Assembly (NCBI RefSeq): GCF_014696715.1
Contig: NZ_JACJQO010000005.1
Location: forward strand, 868,001-932,000
Length of the DNA stretch: 64,000 nt
Origin: Pseudanabaena sp. FACHB-2040
GTDB lineage: Bacteria > Cyanobacteriota > Cyanobacteriia > Phormidesmidales > Phormidesmidaceae
Reading direction: 5' to 3'
How positions within the stretch are numbered: position 1 is the stretch's first letter; each line of letters begins with the position of its first letter. Both the position numbers and the translations under genes were made by a program. Of the stretch, positions 25,326 through 28,870 are shown one piece after another. Under the pieces are notes generated by a model. The model was not told the DNA's origin. It did no database searches and worked only from the letters and a program-made list of their open reading frames with translations.

Positions 25326-26213
25326 CTACTGGGAACTAGAGTGCCGTTGCTGCCAATAGTGAATAGCGGCTTCATACTCGTTAGCCTGGCTGGATTGGGA
25401 GAGAACCTGCTCCCGGAGGTTTTCGTTTTCCTGCTGCAGGGCTAAGAGCTGGCGCTTGCAGTGATCGCGCTCTGCTGCTAGTTCCTGGCAGCGGTGCTTG
25501 AGCTGATTTTGCTGGTGAAATTGCTCGACCAGTTCATGGTCTCGTTCCTCCAGCTTTTGCTGCTGGGCTTTGATGACCTGCGTTAACGCGATGGGGTCTT
25601 CTTCCCAGTCCTCTGATTCAACGGGGGGGAGAGCAATAGGGTCTGTGAGCTGACGGGCAATGCTCTCCTGATAGGCCAGCAGGCGGGCAAAGTTGACCTG
25701 ATGCCGGGTGAGGGTGGTATCGAGTTCGCGGATGTGCTGCTGAGCCACATGGAGCTGGCTGCTGAGGCTGACAGTCAGAGCCCGCACGACCATTACCTCT
25801 GAGATCAGCTCTAAGTCCTGCTCAAACAGCCGCTCAGCCGGAGCAGACTGGTAGTAATTTTTAATTCGCAGTAGATAGTCCTGCACCTCAGTCTGGCTCT
25901 GCTGAATGCGGACACGGAGCCGTTCGAGTTCGAGCTGCTGCTGGTTAATGATGTGCTGGACACCCAGCAGGAGCTTTTGCAGGATGTGGTTTTGCCATTC
26001 GCTTTTCTCATTGAGCTGCTCTTTGAGATTGGCAATGATTTTTTGCTGGGCGTTGGAATATTCTTCTGTCTGAGCGAGTTGGGACTCTAGCAGCTTGTGG
26101 TTTTCAACCCGCAGCTTCAGCTCGTCTAAGGTATCCAACGCCTGATCCAGCGCCTGCTGCAGGAGGCAGATGCGCTGAACCAGCTTAAAGTCCAGGGAGC
26201 CGTCTTGAGGCAT
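25326..26213 (-). CDS. Long coiled-coil protein, cyanobacterial
   Basis: A 295-residue, glutamine- and leucine-rich protein that is nearly all coiled coil (RICLLQQALDQALDTLDELK through the central IINQQQLELERLRVRIQQSQ to LLALQQENENLREQV). An acidic break near residues 200-215 (PPVESEDWEEDPIAL) separates two helical halves. No membrane segment or enzyme motif is seen. ATG 26213 is preferred over an upstream GTG-type start (26234). Similar proteins are conserved in cyanobacteria without assigned function. Just right of the antiporter stop, the gap holds three GATCCAC-type tandem words (about 25248-25270). Confidence 0.75.
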   Translation of the reverse strand: MPQDGSLDFKLVQRICLLQQALDQALDTLDELKLRVENHKLLESQLAQTEEYSNAQQKIIANLKEQLNEKSEWQNHILQKLLLGVQHIINQQQLELERLRVRIQQSQTEVQDYLLRIKNYYQSAPAERLFEQDLELISEVMVVRALTVSLSSQLHVAQQHIRELDTTLTRHQVNFARLLAYQESIARQLTDPIALPPVESEDWEEDPIALTQVIKAQQQKLEERDHELVEQFHQQNQLKHRCQELAAERDHCKRQLLALQQENENLREQVLSQSSQANEYEAAIHYWQQRHSSSQ

Positions 26214-26347
26214 GGCGGTGCGTTGGCAAACCAAGGCGTTTACTGAGTCAATTTAACAGACTCTTTTGAGAGGTGAAGTTCAATCGATGACAGCCGGGGA
26301 TCCTTCCATAAAAGTTTACAGCTGTACCCCAGACTAGCAACGGCCTC

Positions 26348-28870
26348 TCAAAAGCCAAGTATTAGCCACCAAAGGCTAACACCTAGGGCAAATATGCTGA
26401 CATGCTGAGGCCACAGCTGGCGCAGCGGCTGACGGGCAATTTTTTGGGTAAACCAAACCGCCAATAGCAGGCCTAGCAGCAGCGTGGCACCCTGGAGAAA
26501 GGCAATCACGGCGGGGTGAGCCACCCAAACTGGCAGGTTGCCTGAGAGGCCCACGGTCGCCAGAGAAACTGGCAGCACTCGCCCCCCCTCATCCAGGCCC
26601 AGCCGCAGGTAGTGGGCTAAATTCGCTGCCCATACCAGCGGCAGATAGCCATAGGCCAAGGTGAGAAAGGGTCTGGGCTTACAGGCAGGCCGGAGCCGGT
26701 GCTGGAGCTTGAGCATGAGCTGGGCCAAGAGGGGTGCGATCGCACCTACCCCCAACAGCCCCACCGACAGCAACGCGTGCCCTCCCTGAGCCGAGAGATC
26801 CCAGGTATAGCCGAGGCGAGCCTGCAGCTCTGGCAGCCGATGCAGATACACTGCTCCCAGCAGCAGAAACATCAAAGCCACCTCGTAGGAGCGCGGCACG
26901 TGGGTTGTCCACAGCTCAATGCCGGGGGGCCGCAGGTTCACCTCCACCGAGCGGTGGGGACAAGCTTTGAGGCAGGTCATACAGAGCACACAGTCGCGGT
27001 TATCTTCAAGCTGGGCCGGGTGGGAGTAGAGGGGGCAGCCATTGGTTTCTTGGCCTTCTCCTTTTTGGGGGCCACCCTTGTAGCACTGGTAGGTGGTGCA
27101 CTCGGCTGAGCAGGTGCCTTGCTGCGCCCGCAGTTCGGTCATCGAGAGCTTAGCAAATAGACCGTTCATGCCGCCAATCGGGCAGAGATAGCGGCACCAA
27201 AAGCGGCGCTCAAATAGGGCCGAAAAGATCATGGCTCCAGCGGTAATCAGCAGCAGCAGGCAGGCTGATAGGTAGGCCGAATTTTCTAGATGCCAGACCT
27301 CTTCCCAAATTAAAATCAGGGCAAATAGGCCAAAGAGAAACCAGCCGCCCCAGCGCTCAGCCTGCTGCCGGGGCCAGCGCCGCAGCTTGCCTGGAAACAG
27401 CCATTGGGAAAGCTTTTGAGTAACTTCTCCGTAGATCATAAAAGGGCAAACCGCACACCAAAGCCGCCCCACAAAAGGAAAGCCCAGCAGCACCAGGGGC
27501 CACCACCAGGCCCAGAAAACTAGCAGGGCCACATTGCGATCGCGCGTTTGCGGCCCCCAAAACAGTAGCCCTATCACCAGGGCAAAAACCCACAGCGTAA
27601 AGCCATAGTTAATCCGATCGGGCCACCAGGGGCTCCGCAAAAACCGCCGTAGCTGGGGGTAAGCATTGAGCAAATTCAGCCGAAACTGCTTTTTCTTGCT
27701 TTGAGAGGGCCAGATCAGCTCCTCAGTGATGGTGCCTCCAGTGACCATTTGGGCCACAGCCCGCTCGACCAGGTTCTCTAGCTCCCGCAGGTTGTTGGGA
27801 AAGTCGTAAGCCTGCAGGCGGCGAATCGCCTCTGGCGACACCCGCACTCGCCCCATGCGCCGCTGCCGACAGACCAAGTTGAGGTAGTAGTCAATCTGGT
27901 CGCTGATGTCGGCCTTACGCACTCGTAGGGGCGGCACCTTGAGGATGTGGGCCACAGCGCCATCTAGGGCAGGCGTCGCTTTTTCAGAGATTAAGATGAG
28001 GCGGGCCTGAGATGTCTTTTCGGATGGCTGCGGTTCTTCGGGGCGGGGAACAGGGCGATAGGTTTGGGTGCGCAAGAGAGTTGCGATCGCGCCCACCAAT
28101 TCCTTCGGCAGATCCTGCGTATTGTTGAGAATCAGCGTGCCCCGCCCCAGTGCCTCCAGTAGGCCCGGCTTGCCTCCCGCTCGGCCAAACAGATCAGCGC
28201 CATTGGCCTGAAGCTTAGAGCAGTCTATTCGCACAATCGACTCGCGCCGCTCAGCAGAGCCAAAGTGGATCAGGGCCGCCAGGTTGTCTTTTTCTAGACC
28301 CGGCTCGCCAAAAATAAGGACTGGCTCACGGTGGCTAGAGCAATCGCGCACCTGCTGCCGCAACCGCACTGCATAACGGCTCTTGCCAATCACACCTCGC
28401 TTGGCCTTAGCCACCAGGTAGGGCCGCAGAATTACCTGCCGCTCCTGCTCATAGTCCAGCTCAGAAGACAGCCGCCTAAAAGCTTCTAGCAGCTGGCGAG
28501 TAAAAGTCTGGAGAATATCGGGATGGCGGTTGAGGATGACCTGCACCTGCTCGGCACTGACAAATCCCGTGCGGGCCTCGCTCAGCGTCACCACCGTTTT
28601 TTCAACCAGTTGCTCCAGCAGCAGCGCCTCTAAATTAATGATTGCTCCCGGCAAAAAGCCGACGTTTCCAGAGATGGGGCCTTGCGTTTCAATCTGGCCC
28701 TCTAGCAAGATATAAAGCCCGTCAGCCGCTGCCCCAGCCTCGGCCAAAGTCTTACCGGCGGGCAGAGTGCGCTCCTCAATGGCGGCGGCGACTGCAGCCA
28801 AACTGGCGGGGCTAAGCAGGCCAAGGGAAGTATTTTCCTGCAACCAAGTGACAGAGTTCGATACAGTCAT
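26348..28870 (-). CDS. cNMP-like + degenerate sigma-54 AAA + polyferredoxin membrane protein
   Basis: An 840-residue mosaic. Residues 10-150 are a cyclic-nucleotide-type domain (LPAGKTLAEAGAAADGLYILLEGQI). Residues 160-388 look like a sigma-54 activator AAA domain (VPPLRVRKADI, LRELENLVERAV) but lack key parts: Walker A is GEPGLEKDN without the invariant lysine context, Walker B reads LILNNTQDL with N for the acidic pair, and the GAFTGA loop is absent. Residues 420-840 are a NosR/NapH-like membrane module with about eight helices and Fe-S cysteines (C472, C475, C559, C563, C587, C591, C596, C612, and CVLCMTCLKACP at 627-638). Cyanobacteria lack sigma-54, so a sensor or redox role replaces transcription activation (inference). 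Confidence 0.85.
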   Translation of the reverse strand: MTVSNSVTWLQENTSLGLLSPASLAAVAAAIEERTLPAGKTLAEAGAAADGLYILLEGQIETQGPISGNVGFLPGAIINLEALLLEQLVEKTVVTLSEARTGFVSAEQVQVILNRHPDILQTFTRQLLEAFRRLSSELDYEQERQVILRPYLVAKAKRGVIGKSRYAVRLRQQVRDCSSHREPVLIFGEPGLEKDNLAALIHFGSAERRESIVRIDCSKLQANGADLFGRAGGKPGLLEALGRGTLILNNTQDLPKELVGAIATLLRTQTYRPVPRPEEPQPSEKTSQARLILISEKATPALDGAVAHILKVPPLRVRKADISDQIDYYLNLVCRQRRMGRVRVSPEAIRRLQAYDFPNNLRELENLVERAVAQMVTGGTITEELIWPSQSKKKQFRLNLLNAYPQLRRFLRSPWWPDRINYGFTLWVFALVIGLLFWGPQTRDRNVALLVFWAWWWPLVLLGFPFVGRLWCAVCPFMIYGEVTQKLSQWLFPGKLRRWPRQQAERWGGWFLFGLFALILIWEEVWHLENSAYLSACLLLLITAGAMIFSALFERRFWCRYLCPIGGMNGLFAKLSMTELRAQQGTCSAECTTYQCYKGGPQKGEGQETNGCPLYSHPAQLEDNRDCVLCMTCLKACPHRSVEVNLRPPGIELWTTHVPRSYEVALMFLLLGAVYLHRLPELQARLGYTWDLSAQGGHALLSVGLLGVGAIAPLLAQLMLKLQHRLRPACKPRPFLTLAYGYLPLVWAANLAHYLRLGLDEGGRVLPVSLATVGLSGNLPVWVAHPAVIAFLQGATLLLGLLLAVWFTQKIARQPLRQLWPQHVSIFALGVSLWWLILGF

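Follow-up and report, generated by a model that had tools for sequence, protein, structure and literature searches.

A cyanobacterial protein family joining a degenerate sigma-54-activator-type AAA domain to a NapH-like membrane polyferredoxin

A 64,000-nucleotide stretch of the Pseudanabaena sp. FACHB-2040 genome (hereafter, the window) encodes a protein in which a domain of sigma-54 transcription activators precedes a membrane Fe-S module. This raises the question of what such an activator domain does when it is tied to a membrane. The open reading frame starts with ATG on the minus strand, contains no internal stop, and encodes 840 residues that form, from N- to C-terminus, a CRP-type beta-barrel, an AAA domain with the fold of sigma-54 activators, and a membrane polyferredoxin of nine helices (Table 1). 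The Pfam matches follow this order: cNMP_binding at residues 34-116 (E 6e-8), Sigma54_activat at 161-276 (7e-10), AAA_lid_14 at 316-394 (8e-14), and Fer4_5 at 539-575 (2e-7). The AlphaFold model (pLDDT 85) has about nine membrane helices after the AAA domain. The first-pass annotation of this DNA had proposed such a three-part chain, without giving a strand, and the intact reading frame, the Pfam matches, and the model agree with it. It had also named a frameshift joining two genes as an artefact to be checked; more than 130 colinear full-length homologues rule this out.

Table 1. Features of the gene and of its product (window coordinates; residues refer to the 840-residue protein).
Feature	Coordinates	Strand	Basis
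Whole gene, 840 aa (CRP-type domain, putative pseudo-AAA domain, membrane polyferredoxin)	26348..28870	-	
CRP-type beta-barrel (cNMP_binding), residues 34-116; lacks the phosphate-binding cassette motif	28523..28771	-	Pfam, pattern search
Sigma-54-activator-type AAA domain, residues 155-390; catalytically degenerate	27701..28408	-	
Altered P-loop (GEPGLEKDN) at residues 188-196; family signature shared by A and C	28283..28309	-	Alignment
Position of GAFTGA in sigma-54 activators, here DLFGRAGGKPG, residues 226-236	28163..28195	-	
Walker B position RGTLILNN, residues 243-250; Asn in place of both acids	28121..28144	-	
Transmembrane helices 1-4, residues 415-552	27215..27628	-	Model
First CxxCP motif, C472 and C475; at the helix 2 end that is predicted to be cytoplasmic	27446..27457	-	
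Second motif, CxxxCP, C559 and C563	27182..27196	-	
Ferredoxin-type segment C587-C637: unusual CX3CX4CX15CP, then CX2CX2CX3CP	26960..27112	-	
C-terminal membrane helices, residues 661-838; overall module as in stand-alone Deinococcus and haloarchaeal 4Fe-4S proteins	26357..26890	-	

The membrane polyferredoxin module

The first-pass annotation had counted at least twelve Fe-S-type cysteines. There are exactly twelve conserved ones (472, 475, 559, 563, 587, 591, 596, 612, 627, 630, 633, and 637), invariant in the 148 homologues first collected (148/148) and in the subfamily-B sequences (41/41; subfamilies are described below). They are arranged in the order CxxCP, CxxxCP, CX3CX4CX15CP, and CX2CX2CX3CP, a pattern that fits two ferredoxin-type [4Fe-4S] clusters, a number that we infer from sequence, together with a membrane-proximal CxxCP/CxxxCP site. 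Loop charges (positive-inside rule on the AlphaFold helices) indicate that the Fe-S segments and the soluble domains share one side of the membrane. In the full-length model, the Fe-S segment has low confidence (pLDDT <50 at residues 585-629); when folded alone, the C-terminal half reaches a pTM of 0.87 and has no clear match among solved structures. A Foldseek search with the C-terminal module alone gave no match at E <0.001. The best fold match has a Z-score of 6.2 and concerns unrelated helical proteins, while a sequence search of the solved structures with the module returned weak ferredoxin matches only.

The module had been described as NosR/NapH-like, and the NapH part of this description holds: the protein shares with NapH/MauN (TIGR02163, PRK09477) membrane helices with CxxCP/CxxxCP and, after them, a pair of ferredoxin-type [4Fe-4S] motifs (residues 466-644). 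However, it is not NapH itself, since it scores 52 bits over residues 466-644 against an NCBIfam cut-off of 213. Unlike NapH/MauN, it has the CX3CX4CX15CP spacing, extra C-terminal helices, and the N-terminal CRP-type and degenerate AAA domains, and no nap genes were seen among its neighbours. Nor is it NosR. The polyferredoxin part of NosR/NirI is about 26-30% identical to it over some 200 residues, but FMN_bind is not matched in the window protein (Pfam, up to E 1) and no nos genes were seen among the neighbours. The C-terminal domain of CcoG/FixG likewise has no Pfam match in the window protein up to E 1.

The module also exists without the soluble domains. Deinococcus ficus WP_027463891.1 (about 450 residues, 32% identity over 383 residues) consists of the C-terminal module alone, and haloarchaea carry it in the same form as a '4Fe-4S binding protein'; both share the module with the window protein but lack the CRP-type and AAA domains. 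This stand-alone occurrence indicates that the C-terminal half is an autonomous unit of the electron-transfer type. In Deinococcus ficus, the gene of the stand-alone module overlaps that of a His-rich, apparently exported protein (L151:7042-7968), which is possibly metal-related.

A degenerate AAA domain and a dispensable CRP-type domain

Residues 155-390 of the model align to the AAA domains of FleQ and NtrC1 (Z about 25, rmsd 2.2 A); the first-pass annotation had proposed a structural check of residues 160-390. The window protein thus shares the AAA fold and lid of the sigma-54 activators (bEBPs such as FleQ, NtrC1, NtrX, and PspF). It differs from them in lacking the GAFTGA loop, the Walker B acids, and a DNA-binding helix-turn-helix (HTH), in its altered P-loop, and in its fusion to a membrane Fe-S module. 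The GAFTGA loop is absent from every aligned family member in subfamilies A, B, and C. In subfamily A, to which the window protein belongs, the P-loop position reads GEPGLEKDN and the Walker B position carries Asn-Asn (LNN). No HTH is matched by Pfam in the 840-residue protein, whose C-terminus consists of membrane helices, and its own genome gives no match to PF04552 (sigma-54), in a search that was positive in four control genomes including E. coli. These losses had been named in the first-pass annotation, and one needs correction: the Walker A motif, said to be lacking in its normal form, is altered rather than absent, with Lys194 invariant in a 57-row alignment. VpsR and FleQ are non-canonical bEBPs, with an activator-type AAA domain used beyond ordinary sigma-54 activation; unlike the window protein, both are soluble and have retained their DNA-binding domains. 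Because GAFTGA, the Walker B acids, the HTH, and sigma-54 are all missing, the protein falls outside the sigma-54 activators, and we consider a role as transcription activator of this kind quite unlikely.

The state of the domain differs between subfamilies. All members of subfamily B that retain the region have a textbook GxGKT P-loop; their Walker B usually keeps the Asp, and the catalytic Glu is replaced by Asn in nearly all of them. As this Asn is common to A and B, the loss of the catalytic Glu probably predates the split between the two subfamilies, with A changing further afterwards. The AAA domain of subfamily B is predicted to bind ATP and to be hydrolysis-dead; in subfamily A, nucleotide binding is probably altered or lost. 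Nevertheless, the domain does not look like a relic. Its dN/dS is 0.05-0.18 in 11 of 12 pairs, and this purifying selection, together with the conserved GEPGLEKDN, marks the AAA domain of subfamily A as a putative working pseudo-ATPase under selection. The fixed residues of GEPGLEKDN could form a site for a nucleotide or another ligand. Purifying selection and the near-absence of members without an AAA domain support the earlier proposal that the domain has been kept as a structural or regulatory part wired to membrane Fe-S. The idea that it is a decaying relic without a role would account for the stepwise catalytic loss (Glu to Asn in A and B, then changes of the Asp and the P-loop in A). It is barely credible, given a dN/dS far under 1, the conservation of a new signature, and the retention of the domain even where the CRP-type domain has gone.

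The CRP-type domain, by comparison, appears dispensable. The first-pass annotation had called it a cyclic-nucleotide-type input domain. The beta-barrel fold is there (Pfam, and the strands of the AlphaFold model), but a pattern search for the phosphate-binding cassette motif (GE...R[ST]A) found it in 0 of 182 sequences. We therefore rejected cyclic-nucleotide sensing as its role; to judge by the motif, binding of cyclic nucleotides is unlikely. The domain is missing, with the AAA domain kept, from all six members of subfamily C and from two members of A (L147 and L148). What is left in L147 is a short piece of the flanking helices that runs straight into the AAA part, the pattern expected of a clean deletion. 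Search coordinates suggest further A lineages without it, and some B genes lack the N-terminal half, partly because of contig ends or decay. These losses point to a dispensable, optional input.

Subfamilies and gene neighbourhoods

A scan of genome contigs yielded 428 confirmed relatives, of which the best 80 are all cyanobacterial. Of the 386 genomes sampled across the phylum, about 100 have strong matches, all of them in the class of Pseudanabaena sp. FACHB-2040; the other classes in this sample gave separate AAA or NapH-like matches only. The members of subfamily A are about 53-70% identical to the window protein, those of B about 39%, and those of C, which lack the CRP-type domain, about 43%. 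A tree built from the C-terminal module unites the members of B in one group and those of C in another (support 96/99 and 100/100, respectively); it does not resolve A into one clade. Hence, the architecture is that of an old, conserved cyanobacterial family present well beyond the FACHB-2040 genome. Across it the CRP-type domain has been lost in several lineages, and the AAA and Fe-S parts almost never. In the freely accessible literature on the architecture, its sigma-54 annotation, and the sulfide context, we found no description of this domain combination.

Related arrangements were seen alongside the family. One genome carries an A and a B gene about 8 kb apart on opposite strands (G635:C2:202251-215118). 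Three genomes of other classes of the same phylum (L144, L145, and L146) encode single proteins of 660-778 residues with two tandem sigma-54-activator AAA domains and GAFTGA-like loops. The genome of the window protein encodes a second, different fusion of a polyferredoxin and a CRP-type domain (943 residues; G000:C14:15662-18490, minus strand, equivalent to L165:3660-6491). Its Fer4_5 module is followed by a middle part of unknown fold and a C-terminal cNMP_binding domain. Fusions of this type occur in 50 of the 386 sampled genomes, several of which lack subfamily A.

No conserved neighbour was found among the subfamily-A loci compared. The coiled-coil gene downstream of the window gene (25326-26234) was rejected as a conserved partner: it is common to 15 loci only, e.g., in Nodosilinea (L002), and the rest lack it. 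In subfamily B, a cysteine synthase gene lies directly downstream on the same strand, at a gap of 11-538 bp, in 20 of the 37 loci left after removal of near-copies; in A, one lies within 8 kb in 2 of 96 loci (B versus A, Fisher 9.8e-12, an optimistic p-value because related genomes remain among the 37). Also found near B loci and near no A locus are genes for an alternative Rieske protein (6 versus 0), a rhodanese (5 versus 0), and HdrB (4 versus 0); HdrAB or psbA stands beside some B loci. Genes for NifH, HemN, AcsF, and cytochrome bd occur near some B or C loci without statistical enrichment, those of cytochrome bd near 2 of the 37 B loci. In subfamily C, a HemN-like gene lies directly upstream in L132 and an AcsF-like gene is nearby in both L132 and L133; these are tetrapyrrole enzymes of the oxygen-independent and oxygen-dependent type, respectively. 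Plasmids of Aulosira laxa (L153, AP018309) and Pseudanabaena galeata (L154, NZ_CP112877) carry B with cysK and psbA, in gene sets that also include a Rieske protein (petC), a rhodanese or DsrE, and a FAD oxidoreductase. These islands are possibly mobile gene sets for photosynthesis under sulfide or low oxygen, in which the FAD oxidoreductase might tentatively be read as an SQR.

The first-pass annotation had suggested looking for nitrate, nitrous oxide, or hydrogen genes. This lead found no support; the genomic evidence, from sister subfamily B, favours a connection with cysteine synthesis, sulfur, and low oxygen. The adjacency to cysteine synthase suggests that B may have a role in reducing sulfur or supplying cysteine where sulfide is present or oxygen is low. 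Because subfamily A lacks conserved neighbours, the sulfur link comes only from B; a redox or sulfur role in A would be carried over by homology alone, and we regard a specific sulfur role there as unlikely.

The Synechocystis member and possible functions

The gene surroundings of one member (G076) comprise pyrG, a fatty-acid desaturase gene, pdxH, a scpA-like gene, and ffh (names read by eye from the sequences), an order that we take to be that of the slr1529 region of Synechocystis PCC 6803. By this gene order, slr1529 ('ntrX' or 'nrtX') is very probably a member of the family, differing in its label: it has been annotated and studied solely as a putative transcription regulator, a 'nitrogen assimilation regulatory protein' (PMC3516471, PMC4182526). 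The slr1529 knockout grows like the wild type in BG11, and its metabolite changes at 72 h put it among the six most strongly altered knockouts (PMC5318462). The slr1529 transcript falls to 0.29 at 3 uM copper (PMC4182526), and iron deprivation lowers it by as much as about twofold (PMC3516471). Normal growth of the knockout in BG11 indicates that any role is conditional or redundant.

The interpretation that we favour, with moderate confidence, is that of a NapH-like membrane Fe-S electron-transfer protein with a pseudo-ATPase regulatory platform. The protein would be a membrane-anchored, cytoplasm-facing Fe-S protein with all twelve cysteines on the predicted cytoplasmic side. With this placement, the protein probably exchanges electrons with the plastoquinone pool, or a partner in the membrane, on one side and with an acceptor in the cytoplasm on the other. 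The AAA domain derived from sigma-54 activators would probably serve as an oligomerising or regulatory platform, and the CRP-type domain would add an optional input unrelated to cyclic nucleotides. In subfamily B, the electrons, or redox sensing, may be used for the reduction of sulfur or the supply of cysteine, as proposed above; A would be the general-purpose version. The sequences establish the architecture, the residue losses, the invariance of the cysteines, the selection, and the cysK adjacency of B; the donor and acceptor of the electrons, their gating (by redox state or by a ligand, in the hypothesis of the first-pass annotation), the substrate, and the extension of B's role to A are what we infer. 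The more specific version, in which an ATP-locked, hydrolysis-dead AAA ring clamps the polyferredoxin and thereby gates electrons from the quinone pool to sulfur metabolism, is speculative and, in our judgement, rather improbable.

The main rival to electron transfer, possible but doubtful, is that the polyferredoxin is a sensor and not a carrier, reporting the redox state of quinone, O2, or sulfide to a partner through the putative pseudo-AAA and CRP-type domains. The soluble part is indeed made of signalling domains, conserved pseudo-ATPases often serve as switches, and the AAA part is under purifying selection. The P-loop of B, kept without the catalytic Glu, is what one expects of an ATP-locked switch. 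However, twelve cysteines and conserved membrane helices exceed the needs of a sensor, the module occurs alone in Deinococcus and haloarchaea, and subfamily A has no conserved output partner. A metal reductase of the CcoG/FixG type, e.g., one reducing Cu(II) for the assembly of a membrane oxidase, is quite improbable. CcoG-type polyferredoxins have membrane CxxxCP motifs in common with the window protein, slr1529 responds to copper as described above (PMC4182526), and the stand-alone relative of Deinococcus adjoins the His-rich exported protein. Yet the FixG C-terminal domain was not found by Pfam, the copper effect on slr1529 belonged to a general stress response, and B adjoins cysteine synthase, with cytochrome bd near so few of its loci. 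Finally, the database labels ('ntrX', 'nitrogen assimilation regulatory protein', sigma-54-interacting) imply a membrane-bound transcription regulator. The AAA and lid fold is closest to FleQ, NtrX, and NtrC1, and slr1529 was treated as a regulator in the knockout survey that reported the altered metabolites (PMC5318462); but the missing HTH, GAFTGA, and Walker B acids, the lack of sigma-54 in its own genome, and the fusion to nine membrane helices make this highly improbable.

Overall, a considerable fraction of cyanobacteria have a member of the family, among them probably the model organism Synechocystis (slr1529), and it seems to be listed as a regulator of nitrogen or of the sigma-54 kind though it is unable to be one. 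It would provide an example of the reuse of an activator ATPase where its sigma factor is absent. If it is viewed as a membrane redox protein whose gate is a pseudo-ATPase, with one branch linked to cysteine synthase and to gene sets for sulfide or low oxygen, a concrete hypothesis emerges of an electron path at the membrane of cyanobacteria that has so far gone unexplored. If the ATPase-gated passage of electrons were true, an ATPase of the transcription machinery would have been rebuilt as an electron valve in bacteria that have no sigma-54.
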